DNA from: Bryum argenteum
Lineage: Eukaryota > Streptophyta > Bryopsida > Bryales > Bryaceae
NCBI GenBank assembly: GCA_037043015.1
Contig: CM073321.1
Coordinates: 41,684,420 to 41,748,419 of the forward strand
Reading direction: 5' to 3'
Length of the DNA stretch: 64,000 nt
This document shows, piece by piece, positions 1,576-62,558 of this stretch (the stretch's first letter is position 1; the number at the start of each line of letters is the position of its first letter). The notes below the pieces were generated by a model that saw only the letters and a program-made list of their open reading frames with translations, was not told the origin of the DNA and searched no databases. The position numbers were made by a program, and so were the translations under genes.

Positions 1576-1829
1576 TTCAGCTCATTTAGCTCGGTGCTCA
1601 TTTAGCTCGATGCCCATTTAGCTGGATGCCAATTTAGCTTCATTAAAGTATTTAATTCTCCAAGACCACCAAGCCCATTTAGCTCGGCTCGAGCTAAATG
1701 GGCTTGACCTGCACCAAGGCAGTGAGCCCGACCTTGTTTGAGGTCCGTGACCATTTAGCTCAAGTCGAGCTAAATGGGCTTACTGCCCTGTTGCAAGTTA
1801 ACCCCATTTAGCTCGACTCGAGCTAAATG
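1576..1829. repeat. Locus-A palindromes, upstream cluster (3 full copies plus half-sites)
   Basis: Four tandem half-sites (catttagctcggtgc-like, step about 17 bp, 1576-1640) are followed by three full palindromes at 1671-1705, 1751-1778 and 1805-1829. The core arms are TTTAGCTCGA and TCGAGCTAAA. The copy at 1671-1705 is a 35-bp palindrome with 16-bp arms around a 3-bp centre. They lie just upstream of the first coding exon, in the 5' leader or an upstream intron. Confidence 0.9.
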
Positions 1830-1948
1830 ATCTCGCCACTTAATCTAAACATGTTAAAGTTCTTTCCGGTTTGATCGTCAAGATAATGACGACGTTCTAC
1901 TGCCCCTGTGAATCTTACATTGTGATTCTCATTTTTTGAATGACAGTG

Positions 1949-2476
1949 ATGCCGAGAACCAAACAAACTGCCAGAATTGTTCCGATGGCTGCGAATGCAC
2001 CTGCCGAGCCTGAAATCGACATGGAAGTGGAGCAGCAAGAGTCTGTTCCTGAAGTAATACTCCACTTCATATCGATGTTCCCATCTGCTGTATCCATTTA
2101 GCTCGAATCGAGCTAATTCGCTTTCGGTTATTTTGTTATCCACAGGTCACTTATAACATGCAAGCCCTGGAGGGATTCCTTTCAATAGTTCAACTCGAAG
2201 CACCAGACGATCTGCTTGCAGCTATTGCTGTGGACGCGCAATGGAGGAGGTTGTGGACCCCCAAGACGAATTCCATCAAATCTTGGTCGATTCGTCCGAT
2301 GAACAAGACCCATTTCTTCTTCTATCAACAATCGGGGTCTCATGGGGCATTTTTGCCTCTGTGTCTTGATGCCTTCATCGAACTTGTTACTTATGAAGAC
2401 GAATTCTTCCTGATCAAGTTCAAAGCAGTGGAGGTCGAAGATTTCGTCTTCACTATTGTATTTCCCCCAATAAAGT
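1949..2476 (+). pseudogene. Locus A, N-terminal exons: H3-tail-like start plus N-terminal domain
   Basis: Exon 1 (1949-2053) encodes 35 residues beginning M-PRTKQTAR, identical at seven residues (RTKQTAR) to the histone H3 N-terminus and at the same distance from Met, then turning acidic. GTAATA opens an intron (2054-2145) ending in CACAG. Exon 2 starts at 2146 in phase 0 and encodes a domain with PMNKTHFFFYQQ, which corresponds by position to VLLQQDEGREPYHFGIVV in locus C. At 2476 the exon is cut by the gypsy element; the reading phase is kept on the far side at 10173. The start was chosen because it is the first Met after an AG acceptor-like site and the frame continues through the intron. 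An exon further upstream cannot be excluded. Confidence 0.6.
2095..2116. repeat. Locus-A palindrome in intron 1
   Basis: Arms TTTAGCTCGA and TCGAGCTAA, lying inside the 92-bp intron between the H3-tail-like exon and exon 2. Confidence 0.9.
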
Positions 2477-3967
2477 TGTCGCGACCCTAATTACTCCAAC
2501 TCATTTTTTTTCTTCATAGTGAGCCTTACTTGGTAGCGGAATCCCGGCTCACTTAGTTGGTAGCAACCGGCCACGACTTTGCTAACACTGCACATGCCAA
2601 GCACACACAATGTTAGCACCATTTCTAGTCAAGGTGTCCAACCCACCTTGACTCCCCCAACTCATTACCCGGAACCCGTAAATCGGAACTCCCACAAAAC
2701 ACATGGGCATGCCACTTGGTGGCACGGGGCGGCCTTCCACACATGTCCAAGCTCCCAAGGGTGCTACTAATCACCCCCGGAGCTAACCGCCCTTATCCAT
2801 TGTCCAACTTCCCACTAGTCCCCTTCCACTCTTGTTTCTCACCCCATTCGGGACTTTGCCGGAAATCCTCCCGGAATCCGGCACTAGTTTTCCCGGGGAC
2901 TAGTTTGGAGCGGGACTCTTTCCAACCCAATGTTGCGGGATGCTCAAGAGCATCCCACAATGCCCAAGATGTAGGAGTGAGGCTTCCTTTCTATGCTTCA
3001 CCTTCTTGAGCCATTCCCGGTCACTCCCGGGAACCGGCACTACTTATCACGGGGACTAACTTGGAGAGGGACACTTCCCTACCCCATGTTTAGAGAGGCT
3101 CCAAAGCACTCTCTACTTTCCACAAGGTGCGGGAGTGAGGCCCCATCCCAAGCCTCACCCCTTGGAGCCACCCCGGCTCCTCAAGGCACCATGTCCAAGT
3201 GAGGAGGGAGACCACCCCTCCTCATAGTACTCTCTGGAGTCTTCGGTAGGCCCCCCCCTCTTGTGTTGAGGGGCCTTCCGTGACACACTTTTGTTTTGGA
3301 AGACCACCCGTTTTTGCCTTAGCCTCAAAAACGGGCCGTATCTTCTTCTCGGGCTAACTTGTAGCTCAGTTATCCAAATGGGACGTGCAAGCCCATTTTC
3401 GACATCTACTCTTTGAGTAGATGTCGATAGACTCCTCACTTGTCCCAATCGGAGCTCCTATAAGGGAGCTATGCTCCTCTGAACATTCGGGAGTCCCGGG
3501 AGGCAGCAGTCCCGGAGTCCCGAAGTCCCGATGCTTTGGAGAGCCATATCTCCCAAAGCATTGTTTTGCTCTTCACGAGCCTTAGCATTTTGGAAAGCTC
3601 TTGTCCAGAGCTTTCCAAAGACATGCAACATGCCGCCATCCATGAGGGAGGACATTTTGAGTCCCGAAAGGCAACACTCCCGAGTCCCGGAGTGTCCCGG
3701 AACGCGCTCCAACTTTGGAGAGTCATATCTCATGACTCACAACTCCAAATCGCGCGTTCTTTGGACCCATGGATGCGTGCTCAAACAAGGTTTCCATGCA
3801 TGTAAAACACGCCACCAAGTTCGTCCCGAGCACGACGCCATTGCGTGCTGTTTGCTCGGGACTCTCCTTGGTCACCTCACCTTGTCTCTTGCCAAGCCCG
3901 GGACGTCACTCCCGGGTCCTCTCGGCTCACCACGGTGTTCGGGCATCCTTTGGAAAGGGATGTGACA
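2477..3967 (-). repeat. Left LTR (3' LTR in element orientation)
   Basis: About 1491 bp, starting TGTCGCGACC and ending GGATGTGACA, nearly identical to 8681-10167. A purine-rich tract (plus strand ctcacccccacca, 3968-3980) adjoins it internally, as expected for a polypurine tract. Confidence 0.95.
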
Positions 3968-5008
3968 CTCACCCCCACCAAACAGCGTCGATGCCCTCAT
4001 CGACAATCTCTCTTGTCGGCAGTACCAAGTTCTTGAGGTAGCCGCCTCCTTGGCACTTGCACTGCGTTCCAGGGTAGCTAGCCCCGCAATGCTCCAAGCC
4101 TCCTTTTACTTGGAAAATGGCTAAGTCTCAAAGGTGGCACCCGATAGGTCTAAGGTCCTTTCCACCCAAGGACTTTCCTTGGAAGGACCCACATAAACTA
4201 GACCTATCCTCTTTGAGACTCACTTGGAATGCCCCAATGGCCCCAAGTTAGGCTCAACTAGCCCATCATACTCACATGACTTAGGATTGAATTCAAGGCT
4301 AACCAACACTTTCTTGGTCGCAACACCAAGCCCTCTTTTCAAACACTTAGGCTCTCAAGTGGTGAACTTTGCTCGCCTAGGGGTAATGCTAAGTCCCGCC
4401 CGACCTAGCCTTTGCTTCACTCTACCGAGACATGGGTGATCAAGCCATGCGTTGACGATGGTCAACCCGCAAAGGGCACTTTTATGAGCCCGTGCCACTA
4501 CCTTGCTCCCGCCCGAGCAAGTCCTAAGCTTAAGAGTCGTGGAGGTTCACCCACTCACAACTCCCAAGCCAAGGTCCCCTGTTTTTGCAAACATTCCAAG
4601 TATTAGCTTGGCGTATCCTTCAACCTCTTCTAACCAACCTAGCAATCCAAAATGAGATTAGGACTCATCTCACTTCCAACATGCAATCAAGGAACTTGCC
4701 AAAGAACTTAATTGTCAACCAAGTATTACAACATGTGCCATTTGCACCATTTGCACCAAGTGCTAGACAAAACTTAGGCCAAGTATACACAAGTGTGGTG
4801 ATTCACCCCCACTTCAAAGGTTGATGTCCTCATCAATGCTTTCTCGGTGTCTTGGATCTCCGTTGGCTTTCATACCTTTCCACCATCTCCTTTACATTGG
4901 CCATGTACTTGGCCTCAACTCATGTTGCTTCCTTCTCATGGTACCCCGCCTCTTCACCAAGTATTATTTGCCCTTTTTCTTGGTGATCCGGCGATTTCAT
5001 AATGCCTT

Positions 5009-8000
5009 TTACTCCAAACTCCAAGTGATCACCAAGTAGTTCGGGTGGAGGCCGCAACACTTGTTTGCGTTCGGCCTCACCTTATCTTTGTGATATGGCT
5101 TGAGTAATGACACATGGAAGGTGGGATGAATCATGGTCTCCGGTGGTAAGTCCAACTTATACACATCCTCAAACAACCGTGTTGCAATGACAAATGGACT
5201 CACATACTTTGCCATGGATATGGGAGTCAAGCCATCCGGTAAGGTGAGATTTTTCACATTCTTCTACACCTTTTAGCCCTCCTCATACTCCTCATGGCGC
5301 CGCCCTTTGTTAACTTGTTTCACATATCTCTTTGGGCCTTGTCTAGGTTTTTCATGGTCCTTTTCAATAAGTTGCTATCTCATGGCTACCAAGTCTTTTG
5401 CACCTTAGCTTTGTTCCATCTCCGATTGCAATCCATTCAAAAGCTAGGTTGTTAGGCATAAGTGGCTTCACACATAAGCCACCTTGGGCGTGATTGACTC
5501 ATAGCACCATGCCTCAATGCATTATGGCTACAAACCGCCAAACCCAAGTAATCACTTCGATCACTTTGGTCTTGGCAACCCATGGTGCCGGCACCAAACA
5601 CTTGAAAAAGGAGCACCACCTTGTCAAAAGCGGTCACCATCTCTTTTGTTGGCTCCATCCTTGCCAACTACCAAAACCTATCCACCACCACAAAGATGGC
5701 GTCACTTCCTCGTGACTCCGGAAGGCTTGTAATAAAATCCATGGAGACACACTCCCATGGACCATCCCGGATAGGCAAAGGCCGTAACAAACCCACGTGG
5801 TTTTGATATGGCGCCGGTTGGCTTGATATTCAAGTGATACAAGTCTTCACATAATGGGCAATGTGTTCCTTCATTTCGGGCCAATAGAACTTCTTTGAAA
5901 CCAAACATATGGTGGAATTCTCCCCCCTATGCCCGGCCAAGCGGTTGTCATGCTCCTCCTTGAGCACACTCAACCTCCACATGCCCTTTGGAACACACAC
6001 CCTATTTTGCTTTAACTTGATCATAGATTGATGAAGCCCGATACCTTTGGGCTTCATGCCACACCTAAGTTCACTTAAGAACTTTTGAGCCTCGGGGTCT
6101 TTTAAATACGCCTTTCTTATCCGTTTTGCCAAATCACCTTCTCCCGCATACATCACTCTCAAGACTTGCGTGGTATTTGACTTATGTTCACCTTCCAACC
6201 TAGTGCATCCGGCGCCCGTTCACTCGGCCCGGCTTGTGAATCAACTCCACATTTATAAGCACTAAGGTAACATGCCACCTCAATTGCTTGGGTGTAACTT
6301 AGGCTTATGTTTCAAAGTACTTAAATGAAACATTATTGGTGAATACCTTGATCTCATAGAGACCAAGGTAATGTTGCCATGTCTTCAAACAATGCACCAT
6401 GGCAACCATCTCCTTTTCATGCGTTGGCCAATTGATTTGAGTGCCTTCAAATTTCTTGCTCTCAAATGCAATTGGCCTTCCTTCTTGCATGAGTACTCCC
6501 CCGATGGCAAAGTCTCTTGCATCGGTGTGCACCTCAAAAGGCTTATCAAACTCCGGGAACTTCAATACCGGCGGGGAGGAGAGCTTCTCCTTGTTTTTTT
6601 TTTTTTTTTTCAAATGCTTGCACACATGAATCGGTCCCATCCAAGGCCAAGTTTTTCTTAAGCAAACCGGACATGGGCTTAACAATCTTGGAGAAGTTCT
6701 TTATGAACCTCCCATAATAATAGGCCAACCCAAGCAATGACTTCACTTCCCTTTGTGAAGTGGGTTGGCTCCCCTTCTTGATGGCTTCCACCTTCTTGTC
6801 CTCCGGTTTGACACTTTGCCCCGTTATGATGTGTCCCAAGATCTCCATCTCTAGCAAGCCAAACTCACTCTTCTCCCCATTTGCATGTAACTTATTGTCC
6901 CTAAGTTTTTTGAGCACAATTGCAAGGTGCTATGCATGCACTTCCGCCGTTTTGGAGATCACCAATATGTCATGAATGTAACGATGACAAGCCCATCCAT
7001 CTCTTAATGGAATATCGTATTCATGAGGGTTGTGAACATTGATGGGACGTTGCACAACCCAAAAGGCATCATCAAAGCCTTCACCACCTCCCAAATACAC
7101 TTGGGAGGTGTGGAGTTAGAAGTGGACTTATTCCCTTCAACTCCCAAATCGGTCCTTAGCATCATCTAGAACCGGTTTTCCTCTAACTCCTCCAAGTTCA
7201 CCAAGTTGCTTCTACTCCCTAACATGTTGGGAGCCTTGGTGAACTCAAACTCAATCTCCTTGCCTTCGGGGTTGGCAACCACTCTCAATGGCCACCTCAT
7301 TATCTTTACCCCATAGATATAAAAGGAAGTCTTACATAAGATGAGACTAATCCCATCCATTTCACAAACCTTGAAGTTTTCCACAAAGGTGAAGTTTTGG
7401 CACTTCACTTCTACTTCCGTTGCTACAAGGAACGTTTGGTGAGGCTTGCCTCTTTGCAAACCTCATTTAGATGAGCTTGCTTACTCAAATGCAAGCCCAT
7501 CCTCTTCGATGCTTTCAGGGACTTATGAAGGAGTCGGTTGCCCTTTTGGTTAGGAGCAATGCATTGCCATGTGGCCCTCTTCACCACAATTCAAACAAGT
7601 AATGTAACTTGTCTCTTTTTATTATGGACTTGTCCCCACTTTGGGCTTGTCCTTGGCAAACTTGTCCTTCCCATCCTTGGAAGGCCTACTCTCACCACCC
7701 TAAAGCTTTTGCCAACCATTTTTCTTATGTTGACTCTTGGATAGTAATTTGCCTTGCTTTCCGGTTGAGGCCTCCTCTTTAGAGGCCTTTTGGTGACCTT
7801 CATCATCACCAATCCCTTTTGCCAACTTGAGCAATTTGGCACAAGTCTCCGGCAATCTCGGCATCTTGAATAATGCCCGCTCCACCCAACCTTAGAGTCC
7901 ATTGAAGAAAATGACCTATTTGGCCAATTCATCTAACTTCGGGAGCACATTCAAATGTGCATTGAAATCCTTCACATAGGCATGAAGAGTGCCCGTTTGC

Positions 8001-8356
8001 TTCAATTGCACAAGGGCCATGCCATCCCGAATCTCTTGGTACTCCGGGGTGAAGCGATCACTTAGGATCCCCTTGAAACCGGTCCAAGTCAAGTTGCTCA
8101 CCACTGCCGCGTTCTCATCCCGGTAACAAGTCCACCACAAAAGAGCATGCTCTTTCAAGAAGGTCACGGTAATGTTGATCTTGTCCTCTTCACGAGCTCT
8201 TTGGGCCTCAAAGTTGAGCTCAAGTTCCACAATGAAGTCCTTGACCTTGTTTACCTTGCCCAATCCCGTGAAGGAAGAGGGCAAGTTGGTCTTGCACAAC
8301 TTGCGGGAAGAAGGGCATGATGCCCTTCCTTTGAGCTCCTTAATCTCTTCTTCCAA
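5009..8356 (-). other. Gag-pol remnants of the gypsy element
   Basis: Recognisable blocks on the minus strand: gag capsid (about 7916-8356, with ALLWWTCYRDE-type and FTPEYQEIRD-type stretches), a protease-like block (about 7166-7459), reverse transcriptase (about 6546-6917, GLAYYYGRFIKNFS), RNase H (about 6305-6685, VHTDARDFAIGGVL), integrase zinc-binding part (about 5830-6198) and the integrase C-terminus (about 5009-5257). The coding region is fossil and broken. Confidence 0.85.
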
Positions 8357-8666
8357 GACTTGAAGAGTTTTGACAAGCTCATTGAACCATTCATCTCGTG
8401 CCTTCCGCTTGTGGCCGTGTTTCCGGAACGGGACTTAGAGGATTTTCTTCCTCCTCATGGTGAGTAACCTCCTCACCACTAGCAACTTCTCTTGGTTCCC
8501 CTTGCTCCTCTTTTATTTCCATCCGCACATTCGATGGACCTAAAGAAGACTCCTCATGAGGGCCAACCCCCGGCCTCAAAGGCTTGACTACGTGTCTTCG
8601 GGCCACATCGCGAGCTTCCGGCCTCTGGTGCCATCCTACTCTTGATTGGATCCCGTTGCGTAGCCT

Positions 8667-8678
8667 GCTCTGATACCA
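8667..8678 (-). other. Primer binding site, initiator-Met tRNA type
   Basis: On the minus strand TGGTATCAGAGC lies two bases inside the right LTR. This is the standard plant PBS for tRNA-iMet and fixes the element orientation. Confidence 0.9.
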
Positions 8679-8680
8679 AG

Positions 8681-10167
8681 TGTCGCGACCTAATTACTCC
8701 AACTCATTTTTTTCTTCATAGTGAGCCTTACTTGGAAGCGTAATCCCGGCTCACTTAGTTGGTAGCAACGGCCACGACTTTGCTAACACCGCACATGCCA
8801 AGCACACACAATGTTAGCACCATTTCTAGTCAAGGTGTCCAACCCACCTTGACTCCCCAACTCATTACCCGAACCCGTAAATCGGAACTCCCACAAAACA
8901 CATGGGCATGCCACTTGGTGGCACGGGGCGGCCTTCCACACATGTCCAAGCTCCCAAGGGTGCTACTAATCACCCCCGAGCTAACCGCCCTTATCCATTG
9001 TCCAACTTCCCACTAGTCCCCTTCCACTCTTGTTTCTCACCCCATTCGGGACTTTGCCGGAAATCCTCCCGGAATCCGGCACTAGTTTTCCCGGGGACTA
9101 GTTTGGAGCGGGACTCTTTCCAACCCAATGTTGCGGGATGCTCAAGAGCATCCCACAATGCCCAAGATGTAGGAGTGAGGCTTCCTTTCTATGCTTCACC
9201 TTCTTGAGCCATTCCCGGTCACTCCCGGGAACCGGCACTACTTATCACGGGGACTAACTTGGAGAGGGACACTTCCCTACCCCATGTTTAGAGAGGCTCC
9301 AAAGCACTCTCTACTTTCCACAAGGTGCGGGAGTGAGGCCCCATCCCAAGCCTCACCCCTTGGAGCCACCCCGGCTCCTCAAGGCACCATGTCCAAGTGA
9401 GGAGGGAGACCACCCCTCCTCATAGTACTCTCTGGAGTCTTCGGTAGGCCCCCCCCCTCTTGTGTTGAGGGGCCTTCCGTGACACACTTTTGTTTTGGAA
9501 GACCACCCGTTTTAGCCTTAGCCTCAAAAACGGGCCGTATCTTCTTCTCGGGCTAACTTGTAGCTCAGTTATCCAAATGGGACGTGCAAGCCCATTTTCG
9601 ACATCTACTCTTTGAGTAGATGTCGATAGACTCCTCACTTGTCCCAATCGGAGCTCCTATAAGGGAGCTATGCTCCTCTGAACATTCGGGAGTCCCGGGA
9701 GGCAGCAGTCCCGGAGTCCCGAAGTCCCGATGCTTTGGAGAGCCATATCTCCCAAAGCATTGCTTTGCTCCTCACGAGCCTTAGCATTTTGGAAAGCTCT
9801 TGTCTAGAGCTTTCTAAAGACATGCAACATGCCGCCATCCATGAGGGAGGACATTTTGAGTCCCGAAAGGCAACACTCCCGAGTCCCGGAGTGTCCCGGA
9901 ACGCGCTCCAACTTTGGAGAGTCATATCTCATGACTCACAACTCCAAATCGCGCGTTCTTTGGACCCATGGATGCGTGCTCAAACAAGGTTTCCATGCAT
10001 GTAAAACACGCCACCAAGTTCGTCCCGAGCACGACGCCATTGCGTGCTGTTTGCTCGGGACTCTCCTTGGTCACCTCACCTTGTCTCTTGCCAAGCCCGG
10101 GACGTCACTCCCGGGGTCCTCTCGGCTCACCACGGTGTTCGGGCATCCTTTGGAAAGGGATGTGACA
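8681..10167 (-). repeat. Right LTR (5' LTR in element orientation)
   Basis: About 1487 bp, TGTCGCGACC to GGATGTGACA, nearly identical to the left LTR. Followed by the AAAGT target duplication. Confidence 0.95.
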
Positions 10168-10172
10168 AAAGT

Positions 10173-10924
10173 CCGTTTCTCCCACGACTTCATCCGCAAC
10201 TATATGGTCGGGAAGGTCGATCCTACTCAGCTTCTTCATATCGTCACGAGATTGGAGCAAATCTTCCGGCAGCGCACTTACGTTCATGAACCCTACAATG
10301 AACATGGCTGTATCGGAGAAGGAAATCAAGTATGAGGAAGCGACGAAGTCTCTGAAGGACTATTGGGACAACTGTGCAGAGTGTTATGTCTTCGGTCGTG
10401 ACAATCCGCTTGACGTGTCGATCGACCTGCTCGACCCTGCCGAACCAAGGTTTATCGTGCGATCTCTGGAACCGGCCGGCATAGCGCATTACAAGATCAT
10501 CTTGATGAATTCCCTCGATGTTACTTCCAGGCAAACCATCATCATTATGCCGAAGATTAAAGATGAGCCTGAGATGTGGGATTAAGAAGATCTGGTCCAA
10601 TCTTGTCGGTTCCGAATTATCGACGGGCAGCACTACGTTGAGGCTGCGAAACAGTTGATTCGTGACAAGAAGATCGACGACTCGAAGATCCTTGCCCTTC
10701 AGACATGAAAAGCCCATGTTGTGTGGCATTCCGACATTAGCAAGATTCTGGACGTGTCGGCCATGGCCAACAAGACGAACAATGCTGGGACGTTCATACC
10801 TTCCTGGGCAACGAACATCATGGGCGCCAGAAAGGTTTGGGAAGACTATGGCCGCCCTCAAAAACTGAAGAAGCCGCATCGACGTGAAACACCGGTTGAA
10901 GTAGATAACCGGAAACGTTATGAG
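10173..10924 (+). pseudogene. Locus A, ParB/sulfiredoxin-like domain
   Basis: Continuation of exon 2 beyond the LTR insertion, in the same phase. The order of landmarks is KDYWDNCAECYVFGRDNP, RFIVRSLEPAG, SRQTIIIMPKI and then RIIDGQHYVEAAKQL at about 10615-10650. The last matches the [V/I]xDGxHRxxAA signature of the ParB/Srx fold (Box II of ParB-type domains), with Tyr in place of Arg. Loci B (INGQHRV) and C (INDGQHSVEAS) align around it with the same spacing to an upstream RQ(T/K)I strand. The frame carries two in-frame stops flanking the signature, so this copy is probably decayed. The exon ends GAG|GTATGA at 10924. Domain identity rests on motif and order, not on a profile search. Confidence 0.6.
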
Positions 10925-10999
10925 GTATGAGATTACTTGTTCTTTTCTTTTTCTGGTTGGCGTTGTTTGCATTCTCTGTCGACGTTTTTGGAGACGTCG

Positions 11000-11022
11000 T
11001 TTTAGCTCGACTCGAGCTAAAA
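11000..11022. repeat. Locus-A palindrome in the ParB/MTase intron
   Basis: TTTAGCTCGA and its mirror in the 138-bp intron (10925-11062) that separates the ParB-like from the methyltransferase-like half. Loci B and C have their own palindrome in the intron at the same position. Confidence 0.9.
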
Positions 11023-11062
11023 CAACATAGGTTGTTCCTTAATCGTTTAGGCTTCGGTGCAG

Positions 11063-12403
11063 GCATTTGCGGCTGCTATGGTGAAGAGGTTCACCAGCAT
11101 CAACAATAATCCGAAGGACAAGATCGTCAGACCGTCCGACCTTCGCAACGAGCTCCTCGTCATCACATCTCCGGACGACGTCTACGAGTTGTGGAAGAGG
11201 TTCATCACAGACTACAGTCTTGGAGAGTTGATCGACGCCGACACCGAGCTCCCATTCAATCAGGCGAAAGATTGGGAAACTGCCTCAAAGAAGTTCACCT
11301 TGAACAGGGAGTTCTTCAAGGGAATGGGGCAGTTAGACGCGGAGAACCTCGAGGTGTTGGAGCAGCACTTGCTGAACAAGACTCCGGATCGAACGTTGCC
11401 CTACCCGAAGGTGGCCGTGAGGAAGCCTGCGAAGAAATACTTCCAGTGTATGAGTGCGAAGCAGTGGGTCGAGAATCGGAAGAGGAAGAACACTGTCGTG
11501 AGGGAATTGCACAACCTCAAGCCCTCACTCGGTTTGTTCGACTCCGAGTGGCACTTCGACGTCGACAATTGGAGGAAATTTAAGGTGGAATACAATCTGA
11601 CTCGTCAGACTATGTCCATGCTTCTCTCGGTCCCGGGCGACTCGTTCTTCACCCTCTACCGCCAAAAGCAGACGAACAATAGGAGTGCAGCAGAGATTTC
11701 AGAATATGCAGCCGAGTTCTTCAAGAAGTTCCTCGATGTCAAAGGGATGTTTGAACCTCCTGCACCGATTGTTTACACTCGGCTCTTTTACTCTTCCGAA
11801 TTCAAATTCGGGATTTGGGACAGTTACTACGCCTGGAACCAATCTAGCAAGTGTGATATAGGCTTGATTGATTTGCGAGCTGTCCCAGGGAGTGGAAGTA
11901 GAGTGGACAACACGGAGAGTCCATACTTCCAAGAATTCCTTGATGTGTGGGCAGACACCGTGACCAATCCTCACATCAAGAATCCCGAGGTTTGGATGTT
12001 CATCACCTCCAACGTCGACCGTCACTGCCAGGCAGTGGTTTACGTCGACAAGAAGTTGAAGGACGAGTACTCTTGCAAGGCAGCCAACTACATGCCGGCC
12101 AGCAACGAGCGTTTCAACGGCATTTCAGAGGGAAAAGCTTCAGAGAAGCACTTGCTCCCCCTCCTCTTCCTTGTCAAGAAAAGCAGCCATGCTCAGAGTG
12201 TGTTGGATGCGATACCCTCTGTATTCTACGCTCCAGAGTTGCCCCTCTACTCGAAGCCCGGCCCGTACAGAGAACACGACCTAAGTCTCAGTGACACCGA
12301 GCTGCGATTGGAGTTCTACCGTCGGGTGTTGAAGATGTTCTCATCTCCGGGAGGGAAGTTTTTATCGATTATGGGTGGCACAAAGCCACTGTTGGCTGGA
12401 ATT
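11063..12403 (+). CDS. Locus A, DNA-methyltransferase-like domain (probably inactive)
   Basis: An open 447-codon exon from a TGCAG acceptor to a GTAAGT donor. It begins with a segment shared with B and C (INNNPKDK...LRNELLVIT, compared with NINPNKTGK...LKHEIQMIT in C). At about 11850 KCDIGLIDLRAVPG sits where beta-class N4/N6 methyltransferases have motif IV (DLIxxDPPY); the catalytic PP[YFW] is replaced by RAV. Near the end LEFYRRVLKMFSSPGG followed by LSIMGGTKPLLAG (about 12310-12400) matches motif I (VLDxFxGSGTTxxAA). The order IV then I is the permuted beta-class order. The next exon starts with AETYVVISKTEKEAY, comparable to the strand after motif I. The fold assignment is inference from motif order and from the clearer locus D. 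Confidence 0.55.
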
Positions 12404-12447
12404 GTAAGTACCTCGCACCATTTTCTCAATTGGAACTGCTTATGCTC

Positions 12448-12640
12448 GTTTAGCTCGACTCGAGCTAAACACTCTCATGCATGTTTAGCTCGATTCGAGC
12501 TAAACGGTCTCCTGCTTGTTTAGCTCGATTCGAGCTAAACGGTCTCATGCTCGTTTAGCTCAAGTCGAGCTAAACGGTCTCATGCTTGAATCTCTTCAAT
12601 TTGTATTTTGTCCATGGCCTTTTAGCTCGAGTCGAGCTAA
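12448..12640. repeat. Locus-A palindromes, five copies in one intron
   Basis: Copies at 12448-12470, 12483-12505, 12518-12540, 12553-12575 and 12621-12640, the first four spaced exactly 35 bp. Arms are constant while the central 1-3 bases vary (GACT, GATT, AAGT). Spacers share ggtctcatgc, so local tandem duplication is part of the history. The intron runs 12404-12692. Confidence 0.95.
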
Positions 12641-12692
12641 TTCTTCCTAGTCTTCTTATAAGTTTCGTCTCCTTCTAAAACAAATGTGCCAG

Positions 12693-14828: not shown

Positions 14829-14841
14829 ATTGAGACTCTTT

Positions 14842-50442: not shown

Positions 50443-52205
50443 CTAGATGCCTAGATCATTGAAAACATGCGCTCCTACTTCTTCAAGTTGGCGCATTACT
50501 CCGAACCCACCTTCGACTGGGGAGTTTAGATTCACCGGTGGCGACGAAGGAGAGTCGGGGTGCACTATTAAGGGACCCCGTGTGATCAGACGAATGAAAT
50601 CTATCGAATTCGACGAGTTTGAGTGCATGAAATTGTTCATGTCAAGCCGTTTTGCAAGAGCCGAGATTTTGATTTCGCTCTTCACGTCGTCACGATCTAC
50701 AAACCTATAGTAATGAGCTCCGAACATCTGGCATATACATGTCACTCTGTAAGATTACATAATCGTCGACCCGACAATAATTCATGATACTATAAAGCAC
50801 AAAGTTGAAATATAGCTTTGGGTATCGTCGATCCGACGATACCAAACAATAGTATACGAGTGGTTACCTTAATGGCGAGGAGGAACTTCGCGCCCGCGTG
50901 AATGCCAATGACATTCTCCTTCACTGACGCGCACGCGACAAGTATCTCGAAGTAGAATACCATGCGAAGCTTAGTTAGATACACTCGCCATTTTGCCTCC
51001 ATATTTCTGGCGGCCTCTATATAGTACAAGCGATTAGCTGGTGTGTCATACCTCTTCTTGACACACTTCTTCGCATCCTTCGCTAATTCACTTCCTTTTT
51101 TATACAGGAAGAGAAGTGTCACGTCCGATGCGGTCTTCTTGCTGCTGACGTTGTTTAGCATTTCCGCCTTGCTTTGTACGTACGTGGAGAGAGACGGCTC
51201 ATACTGAGGGAGCTCTCTAGCTGAAACCTCGATGCAACTTTCTGGTCTTCCTTTCCACACAAGACCATCAGCCAGACGTTCGGCTCCAAGATCTTGGGCT
51301 CTAGATGATGCCGAAGATAGTCCAAGAATGGGTCGACGGCTCCGCTCGTCTCGGTCACTTGCGAGCGTGGGACATTGCGCAAGTCGAGAAGTGCCAGATT
51401 CACCTCACGTGAAGTGTAGGTGTAATGGCTGCTAGTGACTAAAGCCTTCAATTTGAAGTCTAGCCCTCTGATCTGCACACACTCAAGAGGCTCTTTCGGA
51501 CGGTACTTGATCGTTATGAACCTCCTGTACATGTGCACCACCTCTGGATGCTGCTGCTCCAACTCGACCGCATTTTTTGGCTCTGCCTCGTTGCGTAGGC
51601 GCTTCCTGTAGTACTCCGCTCTGGGATATGTCAAGAGAAAATCCCAGCTCGCCGATGTGAACCGGTGCCTGATCTTCCACGCCTTCCATGTGGCGTCAAT
51701 GGTGTCGCTGCCGCCGTCGATAAGCTTGAGGGAGGGCTTGATTGAAATGATATCCTCAAGCACAACTTTCTTGCGCTTCCTTCTCTCCACCCAGTCGACG
51801 CACGCAAGATTGTCCGCCACAAGCACCAGAGATCTTCCAACAGTCACTTTCTGATATGGTGACGTCCGTCCCGGAGTCTCCCCAAGTAGATTCCTTGACA
51901 TGATGGTGAAGTCTGTGTCGGTGAACCATCCGCATCGCCTGAAGAACTCTCATTTCAGCTTGTTACTCTTGGACTTGTAGGTCTTCGTCTTGTTGAATGG
52001 CAATTTCGAGACAGGGTCGATTAGGTCGCCGACAACATGCTTCGGAAGAAACCTTTCCCAATAGTCGAACTTGTTGTCCAGTAAGGTGATGATTTGAATC
52101 TCATTCTTCAGATTCGCTGCGGACTTTATGCGTGCCCCATCCTATGTTGGATTGATGTTCTGGTATCTCTCCGTCACAACATCCGTGAAGCTCTGCGTAC
52201 GTAAA
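50443..52205 (-). pseudogene. Locus B, DNA-methyltransferase-like half
   Basis: Exon from about 52205 (SFTDVVTERYQNINPT, matching KFTDLLNIRFCNINPN in C) to 50868. Landmarks: LKNEIQIITLLDNKFDYWER; VNLALLDLRNVPRSQ at about 51390 (motif IV position, DLRN for DPPY) with PNVWLMVLCG; and MVFYFEILVACASVKENVIG followed by IHAGAKFLLAI near 50875-50915 (motif I position). The frame after GTAACC resumes at about 50748 with VTCICQMFGAHYYRFVDRDD. Intron positions equal those of A and C. Several in-frame stops and a shift near 51200 show decay. Confidence 0.5.
50760..50843. repeat. Locus-B palindromes in the motif-I intron
   Basis: Copies at 50760-50780 and 50822-50843, arms TATCGTCG and CGACGATA, inside the intron that follows the motif-I exon. 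Confidence 0.9.
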
Positions 52206-52251: not shown

Positions 52252-52272
52252 GGTATCCTCGAACCGACGATA
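52252..52272. repeat. Locus-B palindrome in the ParB/MTase intron
   Basis: ggtatcctcgaaccgacgat, one arm slightly changed, within the intron of about 52206-52286. Confidence 0.85.
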
Positions 52273-52286
52273 GCCACTTTAGATCA

Positions 52287-53738
52287 AAACGTTACCTTGA
52301 ACTTGACGACGTTGTGCACCGCCTTATTACCCCCCGTGACCGCTTCGGAGAATACATCAGTTGGGCGCTTCATGGCTATCCAAATATTCCTACACGCCAC
52401 TACCTGGTTTTCCGATGACAGTTGTGCATGACCAAGGTGGTTGGTGATGTTGTAGAATTTTGAGATTCCTCAAAGTTTAGTTGCGTCCAAGGTCCAGATG
52501 ATGTAAGCGTTCCATTTGCGGAGCTCGTTGCGCCGAGCCTCTCCACATCCTTCTTGCTGGAGCTGTTTTGATGTCCAAACTCTATGCTGCCCGTTGATAA
52601 TCATGAACGTTCCGTCCTTGATCTCATTCCAATCTTCTGGCTTGTTCTTCAGTAGCTTCCCCTTGGAATCCGCTGGAGTTAGGCAGATTTTCTGTCTCAG
52701 CTTGACATCGATCATCTGGACAAGTTCTCTGGCGACTTCTTCAACCATGTCCTGCTGCAGCGTTTGGATAACATACTGATCCTTCTTCAGTATGCACTGA
52801 TCGATATCCACCTCCATCGGGTTCATGATCAGCAAGAAGCAGTCCTTGTGGTTATCCCAGAACCCCTTCTGTAAGTTCGCGGTTTTCTCGAACTCCTCCA
52901 GATTCTCATCAGAAGTACCAGCTCTAGCAGTCACGTTTGTTAGTGCTGACCCTGAAGTTCCCGTAGTTTGAGTCGGTACTATTGCAGTACTTGGTGCGGC
53001 TGAGGCGGATTTCTTACACTTGCGGCTCGACCCAGCTCCATTTGTAGAAGGTGGTGCTCTCTTCTTACCCTCCAACCAAGGCTGACTCGGCGTTACTCCT
53101 CTGCTTGCTGATCTGGAAGGGGTGGACGCCAAGTTCAGGCGTGAAATCGATGCACCCCGATTCGGCTGCACTGGTGATAGTCGCGCAGCGGGTTCCAAGC
53201 AGACGTTAGCCAGGGCGTATCGATCGAGTGTTTGGAAAATCCTCGTGAGTCGATTTGCGATGGACTTTGCAGAGCCACATGGTCCGCTCACATATCCCAA
53301 CCTGATGAACTTGCTATTGAGGGAGGTCATTTCGGAACCCTCAAAGTACGTCATGAGGTCTTGAATGTCGAGAATTCCATGCTCTTTTGTTGTATCAATG
53401 ACAAAAGAGTGGCAGTGATCTTGCTAGAATCCATTCTCGTCCACTGTACGGAGCACGATGACGATGTAGATGTCTCTGTGGCACTCGATGATGGTGACCT
53501 TCTCGTTGTGATTCTAGGGCAGATATGTAGATGATCCGTTCGCCCTGTATGGAATGAACACAAAATTCTTGAATTTGTTGACTCCAAAGTTTCATGTTTG
53601 AACATGTGGCCTGAATTGCCAGAGATCTCCATATATTTCGGCCATTTCTTCGAAAAATGGCTCCTCTCCCGACGGATTCACGAACGGCTCAAGGTGATGC
53701 AGGGTGACTTTGTACTCGTATGCTTCGACTTCCGCCAT
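52287..53738 (-). pseudogene. Locus B, N-terminal and ParB-like half
   Basis: A likely start MAEVEAYEYKVTLHHLEPFV at 53738, then, after stops and shifts, a long open exon (53354-52470). It holds MTYFEGSEMTSLNSKFIRLG, a Ser/Pro-rich basic linker (GSSRKCKKSASAAPST), KGFWDNHKDCFLLIMNPMEV, YVIQTLQQDMVEEVAREL, RQKICLTP and DGTFMIINGQHRVWTSKQL at about 52580-52605. INGQHRV is the GxHR signature of ParB/Srx domains, with the Arg kept. After one stop the frame continues SKFYNITNHLGHAQLSSENQ to VVKFK|GTAACG, as in C (SAFYNTTNPLKHAQPTRGNQ). Confidence 0.6.
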
Positions 53739-53820: not shown

Positions 53821-54481
53821 CTATTGTCGACTCGACGATACAGTCTTCTGATATCTCTGATAAGAAAAGAGCGTAACCATTGCTTTACTACGCAGGGTAT
53901 AGTCGGCTCGACGAAATTCTAGTTTAAGAATACTCTTTTAAATGAACTTCACACCTTATCGTCGAGCCGACGATATGCTCTCCTGGAATCTCATGGAATG
54001 AATTTTTAAGTTGCATTTATTCTGACCTGTTGAGCTCTAACCTAGCTACTCCCAACATTGGTGTTGTCGGTCCGACGATAGCTTCGTAACTTTCATTTTA
54101 TTAATCGAGATCATGATAGTATATTCAATTATATTATCGTTGGGTCAACGATAAATTTTCTTATTCTGCTCTAGGAAGGTTTTCTTAGATTTCACTACAT
54201 TTAAGGCCGTCTGAAGCCTCCTATCGTCGAGCCGTCGATAAGGCTGTTTGATGCCTTCTATTGTCGACCCGATGATAAGGCCATTAGGAGCCTTGTATTG
54301 TCGACCCGACGATAAGGCCATTAGGAGCCTTGTATCATCAACCCGACGATAAGGCCATTAAGAGCCTTGTATCGTCGACCCGACGATACAGCCATTGCTC
54401 TCTAAGCTATTATGGTGGCCTTTTAAATTCATTTTAAATCTTCATACTACCTTCTACTGCTGTATCGTTGGCTCGACGATA
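53821..54481. repeat. Locus-B palindromes, upstream array of about twelve copies
   Basis: Copies at 53821, 53898, 53957, 54063, 54134, 54221, 54259, 54297, 54332, 54370 and 54462, each about 20 bp with arms TATCGTCG and CGACGATA around a variable centre (ACT, AGC, GTC, ACC). From 54240 to 54390 four copies sit in a 36-39 bp tandem unit (ggccattaggagccttgtat). Compensating arm changes occur, e.g. TTATCGTTG with CAACGATAA at 54134. Confidence 0.95.
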
Positions 54482-54489
54482 GTACCATG

Positions 54490-55300: not shown

Positions 55301-55534
55301 GAAACTAACCTGCACAAAAGCGACCGAAGAGCGCCAGCAACGATAGCGATTAGGCAAGCCGATAGCGAACAATCAACGCAAGCACAGGCAATGCACTGGC
55401 AACGCGACGGCAAGGGAGAGACGGCGGAGAAGGAAAGGGAGAGACGGCGGAGAAAAACACGGAACTGCAAAGAAGCACCGACAACGAAGAGAGCTGAGAA
55501 CAAAAGAAATGAGGAGGAAAGGCGGCGCGAGGGG

Positions 55535-55622
55535 GTCATCATGCCCCCAATGATGGCCGCCATGCACATGAAATTATCATGTGCATGGACATGGTCATGC
55601 ATGACCATGCCCATGCACATGA
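55535..55622. promoter_or_regulatory. CATG/RY-motif cluster upstream of locus B
   Basis: About ten CATG words in 90 bp, including catgcatgaccatgcccatg and its near-mirror, with CATGCATG, the RY element recognised by B3-domain factors of the ABI3 type. A matching cluster lies upstream of locus C. Confidence 0.5.
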
Positions 55623-56394: not shown

Positions 56395-56740
56395 CAAGTT
56401 GGGGTCCTAAGTTGCACTAGTTTGGGCCCCAGCTATAGTAGTTGGGGTCTCCAGCTGCACTAGTTGGGGCCCCAGCTATAGTAGTTGGGGTCCCCAGCTG
56501 CACTAGTTGGGGCCCCAGCTGTAGTAGTTGGGGCCCCCAGCTGCACTAGTTGGGGCCCTAGCTGTAGTAGTTGGAGTCCCAGCTGCACTAGTTGGGGCCC
56601 CAGCTGTAGTAGTTGGGGCCCCCAGCTGTAGTAGTTGGGACCCCAGCTGCACTAGTTGGGGCCCCAGCTGTAGTAGTTGGGGTCCCCAGCTGCACTAGTT
56701 GGCGCCCTAGCTATAGTAGTTGAAGCCCCTGATATACTTT
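56395..56740. repeat. 21-bp minisatellite with GGGGCCCC cores
   Basis: About sixteen head-to-tail units of agttggggccccagctgcact alternating with agttggggccccagctgtagt, i.e. a 42-bp higher-order unit. Each unit contains the palindromes ggggcccc and cagctg. Confidence 0.95.
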
Positions 56741-58250: not shown

Positions 58251-59517
58251 TTATACATGGCATTTTAAAAATATTACCATATTACCATATTTTGCCAGTC
58301 TGGCCTCCTCCGCTAGCCCCCTTCTATACTCCCCGTACTGTTCTTCAACCTTCACACCCGGAGCACCTGGAGGAGGCGCAACTCCTGCTGCATTCGCCAT
58401 AGAGTCAGTAGAGGGGTTGCACACCACAACAACCTTCTCTTTCTTCACCGGCGTGTCAGCATCAAGAGCTGGCAGCTCGGGGTCGTCAACAGGCCGGTTT
58501 TGACGACGGGAGCTCGAAGGTGTCCACGACGGGAGCTCGATGGTTTCGCCTTCGGGACGTGGGACGTCGACGACACAGAATTCATCCGCAGGATCTCCGC
58601 TGTCGTTGTCACTCAGATCGATGTAAACGTAGGTGGGCGCCACGATTTCATAGAGTGGTTTCCCCCGTCTGGTTAAGACATTACTCCGAGGGGTTGTGTC
58701 CACTGCAGGTGCAACAGTAGATGAGGGCATTGCACAAGATGCCCCATCCAGTGGTTGACTCGAAGTCGTGGTCTCAGCTGCGAGATCGAGCCGACGTTTT
58801 AATGGCCTGCGCGACTCAACAAGCGCCTCGGGGTTGCCCGAGGATCCGACGACAACACCCCCAGATGATTGAACACGCATTGTCGTCGTCGTGACGAGCC
58901 TCGACGGGATCACTGGCATAGGCTCCTTACCAGGGTGTCGGGTCTCGGTATCAGGCCCCTGCGCCTGGTGCTCCTCACTCATCGGAGTGGACCTAGGAGG
59001 AGATGTCTCCATTGCCTCCGCTGATGGTGCGGTTGGCGAGGCCTGCGCTGATGGTACTGTGGGCGATGCCTGCGCCGATGGTGCTGTTGGCGATGCATGC
59101 GGGGATTGCATGACCAGGGAATCTCTAGTCGCCTGACGACCCGATCGATCGTCCGAGTCGTCGGAATCGTCACCATCGGAGTCGCTGGTAGTGTCATCGC
59201 TGTTCTTCTTCTCCGAGGAGTCTGAAGAAGTATCTAGAGCCCGAGCTTTAGGCGACCGCGTACTCTCAGCTCACATGTCGGACACCGGCTCTGCTGCAGA
59301 AGATGATGGTTGGCTTCCCTCGAATAAAGCCCTCCTTACGAGGCTGAGGTCAGCCATTTTGTCGGACGATGAGCTCTTCTTGGTGTCGTAGGGACAGTCA
59401 TCGTGGATGAAGTCCCTATAGTCAACCCTGGCCCTTTTTACCGGCAGAGAGTAGGTATCCCCGTAGTAGTGCTTGTCAATCAAGCCATAAAAGGCATGTT
59501 TCACGATCTGCATGGGA
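58251..59517 (-). pseudogene. Locus C, C-terminal tail
   Basis: One frame from the TGCAG acceptor near 59518 (IVKHAFYGLIDKHYYGDTYS) to the stop at 58251, with one in-frame stop near 59270. The tail runs acidic Ser/Asp (SDGDDSDDSDDRSG), then four repeats of ASPTAPSAQ type, a Pro/Ser-rich disordered part, and YVYIDLSDNDSGDPADEF followed by VDVPRPEGETIELPSW. IDLSDND and VCVV-like strands with acidic residues resemble SUMO-interacting motifs. This last point is speculative. Confidence 0.5.
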
Positions 59518-59554: not shown

Positions 59555-59733
59555 GTTATTCCCGGCCCGGGGATAACTTATAGAACTTGAAACCGAGAGA
59601 TAAGCAAGATTACCAACAACATGAATACATCCTAACAAGAAATCTATTTAAGATACATGGCCAAATATCATTACTGGTATACAGTGAAAGTTATAAAAGC
59701 AGGGGAGCTAATTATCCCCGGGGCGGAGATAAT
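59555..59733. repeat. Locus-C palindromes in the motif-I intron
   Basis: Copies at 59555-59577 and 59711-59733, arms TTATCCCCGG and CCGGGGATAA, in the intron 59518-59780 after the motif-I exon. Confidence 0.95.
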
Positions 59734-59780
59734 GGTACTATTTTAATCCAAGAGAGGATGCTGGATGTTAAGCTTACCAG

Positions 59781-61124
59781 GGAGGCGACCATGAATTTGG
59801 AGCCGGAGAAGATCCCGAGTGTTGATTCACCCTTCTTGCAGTAGTAGCGGATGAGTCCAATGTAAAAGTCCATCCGCAGCTCGGAGTACTTAGCACACCA
59901 CTTGGATTCGTTGTAGTGCTCACTATTAATGTAATACGGTACATGTGGGGCTTTGAACTCCGACAGGTTGGTGCCGATGAAGGCTTGCCCTTCTGGTGTT
60001 TTCTTGAACAAGAATACAATGAACATGTCGTTCGCTTGTTTCTCTGGGGTTGGCGCGTTGAAGATCTACTCAGCTTTCGACACCACGTACTTGGACGTGC
60101 TCATTGTGTACGTGGGGTGGCTGAGCTGAATCATCGCCTTCAGCTTATCAATCTTCTTTGCAATGCCGCCGTTCACGATCCAGACCCATACAGTAGGGTC
60201 TGTGTAAGCTGGACTTGATATCACCGCGAACTTTGCTACCAAGGCTTTGAAGAACTCCTTCGCAGCATTGGAGTCCTTGCACAGCGAGAAGGCAGTGTCT
60301 CGCAAGTCGAACAGCCCTAGCAAAACTGTTCCTGCAGGCGCCTCTGTTGACCATTGGCCAGTGATAGTCAAGGCCTTTGAGAAGAAGGTCCGAAGATCGG
60401 ATGCCTTGGTGGACTCCCGATGCTTGGACTTCTCCCACAGGAAGCTCTTGAAGAAGTCCTCGATGTTTGGGAACATGAGCTTCATCTCCCCGACCGTCTT
60501 GCACTTCCCCTCATTCTGCAGTCGGATCGAGTAGAATTTAGCCTCGACGTGGCTAAGCAGCATGTTCCACGACGCCGTTGAGAAGCCCTTCCTCGACTTC
60601 CATATCTTCCATTTCTCTGGGCATACCGCTCCGCCATTGGGAAGGAAGAATAGAAGAGATGGCCTGACCGCCTTCAACTCTTGGTACACGACTCCCTTGC
60701 ACTTCTGACGAATAATCCAATCACCGCACGCGTGGCTCAGGCGATGGAAGTACTTTGTCTTGTGGAAGGACAACCTTGGATACTTCAGCGCACCTTTGGC
60801 GGTTTCAACGTCGACAAGGAAAGTGATGACCCTGTCGATGTCATCATTGGAAAGATTTCCGAACTTCCTGAAGAACTCCCGGCTCACATGATGCTTATCG
60901 TTCGTGAAGTATGATGGGTTCATGCGATAAGCCACGCCTGTGTCGGGGTTGATCAGATTTCCAAGCGAATGAAGTTCGAGGAACTCCTCGAACTTATCGT
61001 ACATGTTGTCTGGAAATGTGATCATCTGGATCTCGTGCTTGAGGTCCGATGTAGTCAGAATTGTCTTCCCTGTCTTGTTGGGATTGATGTTGCAAAACCG
61101 GATGTTGAGAAGATCCGTAAATTT
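59781..61124 (-). pseudogene. Locus C, DNA-methyltransferase-like half
   Basis: A 448-codon exon, almost the length of its locus-A counterpart (447), bounded by CTCAG and GTAAGC. Landmarks: KFTDLLNIRFCNINPNKTGK; REFFRKFGNLSNDDIDRVIT; TVLLGLFDLRDTAFSLCKDS at about 60300 (motif IV position, DLRD) with DPTVWVWIVNGG; and ELRMDFYIGLIRYYCKKGES followed by TLGIFSGSKFMVASL (motif I position, FSGSK close to FxGSG). A single in-frame stop lies near 60067. Same domain order and exon borders as A and B. Confidence 0.6.
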
Positions 61125-61208
61125 CTGAGAGAACATTAAAAAAAAGTTAGATGCAAAGAGTGTAAATACTAAGAATACGTGTTGGACCAACTCTGAAACA
61201 GACGGTGG

Positions 61209-61231
61209 GTTATCCCCGGCTCGGGGATAAT
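61209..61231. repeat. Locus-C palindrome in the ParB/MTase intron
   Basis: GGTTATCCCCGG and CGGGGATAATC in the intron 61125-61257, the same intron position that holds palindromes in A and B. Confidence 0.95.
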
Positions 61232-61257
61232 CTATGGGGAATGTCTATTGTCTTACC

Positions 61258-62389
61258 TTGAAATTGGTGGGATTGTAGACCGAGTCGTTATTGCGAGTCG
61301 TGTTCTCGTTCACGCTTGCGGACGGACGCCCACAGTCGATCCAAATAGACCTCCCAGGTTTTATCTGGTTGCCCCGCGTCGGCTGGGCGTGCTTCAGAGG
61401 ATTCGTGGTGTTGTAGAATGCCGAAATCACTGTGAGGCGCTTCGGGTCGGTCTCGTAAAGAATGTACGCATACCACGATAGAAGCTCCTTCTTCCTGTCC
61501 TCTGTCACGGGCTCGTTCTGAAGCTCCCTCGAGGCTTCCACGGAGTGCTGGCCATCATTGATGGCAAATCTTCCATCCTTGATCTCCTCCCATGTTGTCG
61601 GCCGCCTAGGGAGCAAATTTCCATTAGCGTCAATGAGAGTGATGATAATAGTCTGCCTCCGGGTAATATCTCCCATCCTTGCCAGGTATTGCTTGGTGTT
61701 TGTTATGATGTCCCTTTCGAGACTTCGCACAACCCACGTGTGTTTTCCTTCTCAAGCTGGGAAATGGGCACCAACTTCTGTTCTTTCTTGAACAAGAATG
61801 AGTCTTTGAAGCTTTGGTTGAAGACTGTCTGCTTCGAAGGAAACCTCACATAGTCTACCACTTCAGCCGAAGGTTTGGATGAATCCTTCTTCTGTCGAGC
61901 GGGCACTTCGACTATAGAAGTTAAGGCAGATCCTTGACTTGCGGTTGCAGGGGGAGCGGTACGCTGTCTCTTCTTCTTGGGGGCGGCTCCACCCGCTACA
62001 ATCGCATCATTCATCAGCCTCTTTGCAGGCACTCGCGGTGGAGCCGGCAAAGCACCACTTGAGACCGGGGCTGAAGTCTCAGAATGCAGGATAAGTGCAG
62101 AGGCGGCGGGTGCCTTCTTCTTCTTGGCCGCTTTACTGCTTGATCCTTCATGCATCTGTGACAGTCTTGATAGCATGGTCGTAAGTTTACGAACTGTATC
62201 TTCATGGTTGATGTTCTCCCAGCTGATGATGTTGTCCTCCCAGAACTTGAGAAAGCTATGCCGAGTCTTGCGCAGTTCCGCAAGAAAGCCATGTAGGTCG
62301 AACTGTGCTCCGCAGTCTACACCCACCTCTACCACAATTCCAAAGTGGTAAGGTTCCCTACCCTCATCCTGCTGTAGAAGGACACACCT
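61258..62389 (-). pseudogene. Locus C, ParB-like half
   Basis: Starts after the GCTCAG acceptor with VLLQQDEGREPYHFGIVVEV, then a helical part (FLKFWEDNIISWENINHEDT), a Lys-rich nuclear-type linker (AAKKKKAPAA, PKKKRQR) and FKDSFLFKKEQKLVPISQLE. RSLERDIITNTKQYLARMGD and RRQTIIITLIDANG follow, then EIKDGRFAINDGQHSVEASR at about 61520-61567, the DGQH signature with Ser for Arg. The exon ends YNPTNFK|GTAAGA. A +1 frame change near 61735 separates the two parts, either a frameshift or a missed short intron. Confidence 0.6.
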
Positions 62390-62413
62390 GAGCAAAATCA
62401 CCTCTGCGAGGCG

Positions 62414-62558
62414 GTTATCTCCGAGGCGGGGATAATTTGTATTCTTTTTTGTTCTTTAATGGCACAGTAACAATATTTTTTCCAAGCCGGAGATAATTCC
62501 TTCCTTCATAAGCCAAATACTCAGCTATGGGCAAGATTTATCCCCGGCCCGGGGATAA
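62414..62558. repeat. Locus-C palindromes in the first visible intron
   Basis: Full copies at 62414-62436 and 62538-62558 and a one-armed copy at 62482-62496, arms TTATCCCCGG and CCGGGGATAA. Confidence 0.95.

Follow-up and report, generated by a model that had tools for sequence, protein, structure and literature searches.

Why should each of three homologous genes in a moss chromosome be accompanied by palindromes of its own? This question is raised by a stretch of 64,000 nucleotides from Bryum argenteum (assembly GCA_037043015.1, contig CM073321.1, positions 41,684,420 to 41,748,419, forward strand), called the window below, in which three loci (A, B and C) each contain a copy of one gene, here termed gene 2, and a family of palindromic sites, or dyads. 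The answer proposed here, with a probability of roughly one half, is that the dyads may serve an element-encoded, lineage-specific self-recognition, comparable by analogy to the anti-silencing of VANDAL transposons by VANC proteins and carried out by unrelated proteins.

The palindromes at the three loci are real. Allowing up to three mismatches, 12 dyads of type A, 12 of type B and five of type C were found in the window, whereas five mononucleotide shuffles of the window yielded none of any type. The arm of type A (TTTAGCTCGA) matched 20 times, always within 1601 – 16515 (dinucleotide-shuffle mean 0.11), and the arm of type C (TTATCCCCGG) five times, always at 59.5 – 62.6 kb (mean 0.13). The arm of type B (TATCGTCG) matched 14 times (mean 0.80), with 13 matches at 50.8 – 54.5 kb and a single stray one at 34977. 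Each dyad family was confined to its own locus within the window, as an earlier note on this DNA had reported, and the numbers given there were recovered for locus A (12) and for locus C (five, plus half-sites). The claim of about 20 palindromes at locus B was too high, even if a further perfect palindrome at 49972, B-like except for four outer bases, is counted; several B sites are decayed. Similarly, the arms were held as described, whereas the described lengths of 20 – 27 bp and varying centres gave way to a tighter geometry: all dyads span 21 bp, with a centre of 1 bp in A (TTTAGCTCGA-N-TCGAGCTAAA) and C (TTATCCCCGG-N-CCGGGGATAA) and of 3 bp in B (TTATCGTCG-NNN-CGACGATAA). A dyad pattern with a 7-bp centre had no match, the real centre being 1 bp. 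An RNA hairpin as the main role was rejected by reasoning, as a 1-bp centre leaves no loop.

The genes of the three loci are homologous, as shown by tblastn matches, and have introns 2 and 3 in common, in agreement with the shared intron positions noted before. In locus A, B and C alike, both introns contain a dyad of the gene's own lineage, and a 61% identical relative on contig C3 (L064) has its own dyad in intron 2. None of the 29 window dyads was centred in a coding segment supported by homology, although such segments make up 26%, 47% and 46% of loci A, B and C, respectively.

Genome-wide searches covered 258.8 Mb in 25 contigs, of which contig C1 (44.1 Mb) holds the window. Exact dyads numbered 5878 for A, 324 for B (core minus the outer T) and 693 for C, whereas reversed controls gave none for A, B or C; exact A and exact C dyads were absent from viral contigs. 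A common 21-bp frame, TT-N5-CG-N3-CG-N5-AA, fits the three types. Indeed, T1, T2, C8 and G9 are common to the half-site consensus of all three types (chance 0.0015, or 0.011 without T1), and B and C are identical at six of eight positions when T1 is left out (chance 0.004). A restricted version of this frame (TTWWSNNCGNNNCGNNSWWAA) returned 8618 sites genome-wide, including the 5878 exact A dyads, versus 41 for the reversed control, and eight A and four C dyads in the window (shuffle mean 0.03). A further type, A' (TTTAGGTCG; 106 sites), emerged from the restricted-frame search, and type D (TTATC[AT]NCG; 15 sites) from a second one. Among 50 A' sites on C1, 11 pairs were spaced by 1461 – 1507 bp (random maximum 2), which is about the distance between the dyads of intron 2 and intron 3 in A, B and C (1431 – 1498 bp); none of these 50 sites lay within 10 kb of a gene-2 copy found by the search with a locus C exon. 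The half-site statistics, as well as the CpG and flank statistics and most tree rows presented below, rest on L001 – L060, the first loci on C1, picked by palindrome.

Palindrome type followed gene lineage. In a gene-2 tree of 11 rows, the labels A, B and C each occupied one side of a supported branch, and two changes of type, the minimum for three types, sufficed to explain them (0 of 200 shuffles as low); the decayed C-like copy at C1:234594-237612 is omitted from this tree, and its row A_509k merges two neighbouring loci. Linkage pointed in the same direction. On C1, a B dyad was present no more than 5 kb from seven of the eight B-type genes, such neighbourhoods making up 2.9% of the range, and a C dyad was equally near to five of the six C-type genes (2.0%); none of five B-type genes had a C dyad at that distance. 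The genes of this comparison stem from protein searches (B-type, at least 44% identity; C-type, at least 64%; copy 2293835 outside the set). Palindrome listings on C1 reach approximately 1.3 Mb for A, 5.6 Mb for B, 4.7 Mb for C and 25 Mb for A', the tests of linkage for these four types being restricted to this listed start of C1, whereas the D and E lists are whole; P values treat sites as independent. Counted from the genes, nine of the 12 gene-2 matches on C1 below 4.69 Mb (locus C exon search) had a fitting dyad within 5 kb (three B, five C and one E). Counted from the dyads, a listed gene 2 was no more than 10 kb away for 7/11 B clusters on C1, the remaining four containing pieces of gene 1 (the partner gene described below) or of gene 2, and likewise for 5/7 C clusters. 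The view of the earlier note that palindrome and gene changed together is thus upheld by the tree and by genes lying mostly beside their own type, and a scatter of palindromes without any link to the gene family was not found. What had to be given up is privacy to one gene, since a palindrome is clade-wide and some types intergrade; one palindrome per gene is ruled out by A-type genes that are only about 30% identical and carry one common palindrome.

Public protein sequences extended this picture. Whereas a single-sequence protein search with gene 2 gave no relatives, an alignment search among 5.8 billion proteins found 13 of 6675 candidates to be related (E 3e-68 or better), all of them unnamed and without a Pfam domain. 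Five of the 13 (P0123, P0124, P0128, P0132 and P0133) show a dyad read through the intron. By our own back-translation, YPRPGDN in P0133, LSPGRG in P0123 and LSPVRG in P0124 correspond to type C, YHRSGDN in P0128 to type D, and YPRLED in P0132 to a previously unseen type E (TTATCCTCGA); LSSTRG in P0130 matches a single B-like half. Back-translated in the same way, LARLELN in the gene-1 relative P0055 is of type A. Type E, having been read from P0132, was then searched in the present genome and found at nine sites. Seven of these are on C1, and each of the seven had a gene-2 copy at 2.6 kb or less (0.11 expected). Of the 11 D sites on C1, three were within 3 kb and eight within 20 kb of gene 2 (expected 1.09), and four D sites on C3 were 2 – 10 kb from the L064 gene. 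The string LSSSRR in another gene-1 relative, P0080, also came up in the motif scan and was taken as a chance match.

The dyads are not private to three genes, as had been supposed, and instead tag a multi-copy family of two genes. Beyond the palindromes lies gene 1, in opposite orientation, the two genes being divergent wherever both were seen. At C1:224971-233030, for example, the order is gene 1, palindromes, a CATG-rich block, palindromes and gene 2. Of 1579 candidates in a genome search with gene 1, 146 were scored as matches; the copies reach 96% identity, with frames open over about 1000 residues, and are found on several contigs. The family seems to have spread recently, because closely similar copies of gene 1 and gene 2 (about 90 – 96%) with long open frames are present on several contigs. 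The C-terminal part of gene 1 matches DUF7869 (PF25273; E 8e-44; for the fragment L065, 149.9 bits versus a cut-off of 26), a name absent from the papers searched. Searched against Pfam down to E 1, L065 matched DUF7869 only, and other gene-1 pieces had no relevant match; a gene-1 profile gave nothing credible against PDB. Since the organisms named among the 120 listed of 285 DUF7869 relatives are Ceratodon purpureus and Physcomitrium patens, the element family is apparently one of mosses. We infer that it is a transposon. The motifs HDKMD, Q[MI]DN and GHTH of gene 1 may represent an RNase H-like transposase core, this being our own assignment from the sequence; GHTH is missing in one of the five gene-1 proteins compared.

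Two other explanations were weighed. Transposases often bind repeated internal motifs, and the dyads might be sites at which gene 1, as the putative DUF7869 transposase, acts in synapsis or transposition. Gene-1 copies do split by dyad type, the four A and three B rows of a gene-1 tree being separate (12 and 20 of 500 shuffles as low), but the dispersal of dyads through the introns of gene 2 makes such a role doubtful. Alternatively, the dyads could be operators at which gene 2 represses its own element or controls its copy number, instead of acting as an anti-silencer. This would suit the clusters upstream of gene 2 and between the divergent genes, and the arrays, which lend themselves to cooperative binding. 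Yet promoter control would hardly need the dyads that lie well inside introns 2 and 3 or in the 3' part, so that this explanation is doubtful too.

A passive origin was considered as well, in which the dyads would be spread by slippage and gene conversion and read by no protein of the element. Many dyads indeed stand in tandem arrays with periods of 35 – 62 bp, and the flanks of type A are symmetric beyond the core while varying between sites: position 11 was symmetric in 81 of 92 cases (shuffled mean 43) and position 12 in 75 of 92 (mean 37), the symmetry being gone at position 13, and the B and C flanks showed no clear excess. This flank symmetry speaks for either a reader with two-fold symmetry or gene conversion from arm to arm. 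Against passivity, the geometry is fixed and the frame mostly common to lineages of 27 – 42% protein identity, the dyads of A, B and C occupy the same introns, and A' has the fixed spacing reported above, which together render it improbable. With regard to base changes, CpG positions of type A were altered in 24 of 368 cases versus 35 of 1472 elsewhere, and 20 of the 24 alterations were C>T or G>A, which fits methylation of old copies without being proof of it.

As to the protein that might read the dyads, four parts can be told apart in gene 2: the exon bearing the [DN]GQH motif, which hardly varies, then the conserved C-domain, an acidic linker and finally a NIF-like domain. The last of these resembles NIF/FCP1 (PF03031) below threshold (20.5 bits; cut-off 21.8). 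Phosphatases of the NIF/FCP1-like HAD type have the catalytic motif DxDx(T/V), which was not matched in gene 2 of A, B or C, its place being taken by ELDGV, DLNGI (B-palindrome locus) and DINGI, respectively. A relation to ParB, with which the earlier note drew a comparison, remains a lead from sequence. In its favour, the DGQH motif is present, and [DN]-G-Q-H, the R-Q pair and F-Y-N..N of gene 2 resemble, in our own comparison, three motifs of DGQHR/ParB-Srx proteins in the available text of PMC4619093. On the other hand, all profile matches were below significance: those in Pfam (DUF1015, 0.13; GmrSD_N, 0.15; DUF6551, 0.18) came from one of the 13 members each, with unrelated families scoring alike beside them; a PDB match to SbnI (0.85) in one search was gone in a later one; and an NCBIfam scan gave only weak unrelated matches. 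It is tentatively conceivable that gene 2 encodes a protein with a ParB/Srx fold (DGQHR-like) that acts as anti-silencer of a plant transposon family, as a dimer on CpG-bearing 21-bp dyads, with the middle five bases as lineage code and the degenerate phosphatase-like domain as effector, as a eukaryotic equivalent of loading at parS that is separate from VANC. Segregation or anchoring in the manner of ParABS, with such a protein loading at the dyads and spreading, would likewise draw on the DGQH motif and palindromic sites and finds a precedent in VirB (PMC10770331, as far as its available text goes), but the non-significant ParB profile matches and the dispersal of the sites over many chromosomal copies make it very improbable.

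Gene 2 is numerous: one locus C exon gave at least 150 matches in the genome (150 of 836 candidates scored), and in a second search 150 of 713 candidates were scored. Of the 150 matches listed in the former, 117 lie on C1, which makes up 17% of the genome, and these include most of the divergent ones; C1 may be a poorly recombining chromosome, possibly a sex chromosome.

According to the proposed self-recognition, a dyad-reading protein of the element, most probably gene 2 as a dimer, would bind dyads of its own lineage along the element. This binding would mark copies of the same lineage and keep them open against host silencing, as VANC does on VANDAL. Changes in the middle bases of the half-site would let lineages separate, and the CG pair flanking the centre would permit methylation-sensitive reading. 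We infer both binding and anti-silencing from the sequence and the VANDAL analogy. Anti-silencing is considered the most likely function because the layout matches that of VANC and VANDAL, autoregulation and binding by the transposase being the main rivals.

Several observations weigh against this interpretation. The ends of the element and target-site duplications were not located. The frame is weaker in B, in which T1 is T in 64% of the half-sites and none of the 12 window dyads fits the restricted frame. Types intergrade, as the C3 copy L064 has C dyads in its intron and D dyads 2 – 10 kb upstream. A B dyad is found no farther than 5 kb from one of the six C-type genes; the C-like gene-2 copy 237098 has a B dyad only within that distance, and around copies 2293835 and 2857088 none of the exact dyads looked for (B, C, D, E and A') was present, so that a few members may lack a fitting palindrome, a point on which the earlier note had set weight, beside the nine of 12 that have one. 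All three of these copies carry in-frame stops. Three D sites are 57 – 455 kb from any listed gene 2, and two E sites on contig C5 adjoin none. The neighbours of the E sites on C1 are 45 – 75% identical to C, because of which E is not one tight clade. The program that built the gene-2 tree flagged long branches and two sparsely filled rows, and the split of gene 1 by type (seven labelled rows, no C) means that the tree cannot tell which protein reads the dyad. Finally, an excess of CpG change was absent in type C (5 of 236 versus 36 of 944) and slight overall in type B (41 of 440 versus 49 of 550, with 37 of the 41 being C>T or G>A).

Within the window, locus A starts with four A dyads upstream of gene 2 (1678 – 2117; starts 1678, 1754, 1807 and 2097; dyad search). 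It is interrupted by a long terminal repeat (LTR) retroelement outside the system (2477 – 10167; self-BLAST of 1501-11000), with two 1.49-kb LTRs that are 98.9% identical, which the earlier note had missed. Gene 2 follows on the plus strand, with the DGQH-motif exon containing two in-frame stops (10256 – 10858; tblastn), the C-domain exon (11060 – 12410; homology) and the NIF/HAD-like domain with ELDGV (15077 – 15937; the PF03031 match given above). Its A palindromes were found in intron 2 (11001 – 11021; dyad search and intron mapping) and, by dyad search, in intron 3 (12449 – 12641; a 35-bp array at 12449, 12484, 12519 and 12554, and one at 12621), in the linker part (13340 – 13360) and in the 3' part (16495 – 16515).

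Loci B and C have gene 2 on the minus strand, its exons placed by homology and the dyads by dyad search. In locus B, two B palindromes in intron 3 (50760 – 50842; 50760 and 50822) are followed by the end of the C-domain exon in a different frame (50844 – 51209), the C-domain exon with two in-frame stops (51176 – 52204), a B palindrome with three mismatches in intron 2 (52253 – 52273), the N-terminal part and NGQH-motif exon with in-frame stops (52293 – 53708), an upstream cluster of nine B dyads, partly a 37-bp tandem array (53821 – 54482), and a CATG-rich block (55517 – 55622; self-comparison). In locus C, the acidic Ser/Pro-rich linker (58300 – 59270; DNA similarity to L061 ends at 58300) precedes two C palindromes in intron 3 (59556 – 59732; 59556 and 59712), the C-domain exon (59754 – 61127), a C palindrome in intron 2 (GTAAG...CTCAG; 61210 – 61230), the N-terminal part and DGQH-motif exon in two frames (61254 – 62394), upstream C palindromes (62415 – 62558; 62415 and 62538) and a CATG-rich block (63675 – 63800; self-comparison). 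By analogy with C1:224971-233030, the latter block is presumably the middle of the locus C element, gene 1 lying past the window edge. Such CATG-rich blocks upstream of gene 2, also seen in L061, L062, C1:229366-233030 and C1:962748-971211, have small palindromes of their own, the B and C versions being alike. Between L061 and L062 the gene is 92% identical, yet the leaders of about 1 kb upstream of gene 2 barely align, suggesting exchange or rapid leader turnover.

Other features of the window include an open reading frame (ORF) at 37025-37900 (minus strand) whose YEGNHR motif is suggestive of ParB/Srx proteins; it gave no Pfam hit, and tblastn within the window did not match it to gene 2. 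A 21-bp tandem array at 56397-56729 (TAGTTGGGGCCCCAGCTGTAG) has a near-palindromic core outside the three families. Furthermore, nine TAGGGTT copies, the plant-type telomere repeat, occur chromosome-internally at 26835-26898, and the ORFs at 24556-25365 (minus strand) and 28273-29253 (plus strand) are homologous, with about 30% identity, and belong to an unknown family.

With respect to known systems, no description of this element family was found among the literature searched by title and start of abstract, Repbase and subscription papers lying outside that search. The Lanisha DNA transposons (Repbase Reports 2020) are linked to moss work. Membership of Lanisha/CMCT was rejected for the present element, as C(2)C between the second D and the last E was found in none of five gene-1 proteins, the D positions being our own assignment. 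Lanisha is a DNA transposon lineage according to the available text of a citing paper (PMC12730594). Transposons of the Lanisha/CMCT kind are also characterised by 5'-CA...TG-3' ends and duplicate 2 – 5 bp of the target site. VirB, a ParB-type bacterial antisilencer, loads at palindromic virS sites and counters H-NS, as stated in the available text of PMC10770331. For a protein of ParB type that would counter silencing from palindromic sites it is a precedent in concept only, being bacterial and directed at H-NS. The main text of a survey of ParB folds (PMC12704722), as available, did not contain 'transpos', 'plant' or 'moss'.

If the proposed self-recognition is true, transposons of land plants would have come to recognise their own kind by sequence on at least two occasions, starting from unrelated proteins, and a role would be at hand for DUF7869, a domain of unknown function, and for the unnamed protein family of gene 2. 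The fixed 21-bp dyad, with its natural variants A, A', B, C, D and E, would be suited to tracing changes of DNA specificity over thousands of sites.

VANDAL is related to Mutator-type transposases. In the text available of PMC5735166, VANC/VANDAL motifs are dense in introns and other non-coding regions, form tandem repeats and diverge with the protein, and VANCs are reported to bind non-coding regions and strip silent marks (PMC10398659, available text). The analogy with VANDAL made in the earlier note fits this layout: as in Arabidopsis, an accessory gene stands beside a transposase-like gene, with dense, lineage-specific, non-coding motifs. In contrast, gene 1 matches DUF7869 and no Mutator-type domain, the scanned exons of gene 2 gave no hit to DUF1985, the VANC domain, and the tag, a dyad of 21 bp, largely keeps its frame, whereas 'palindrom' does not occur in the main text of PMC5735166. 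Transposons that combine an accessory reader with lineage-specific tags are of a known kind, that of VANDAL, from which both proteins and the tag of the B. argenteum element differ.

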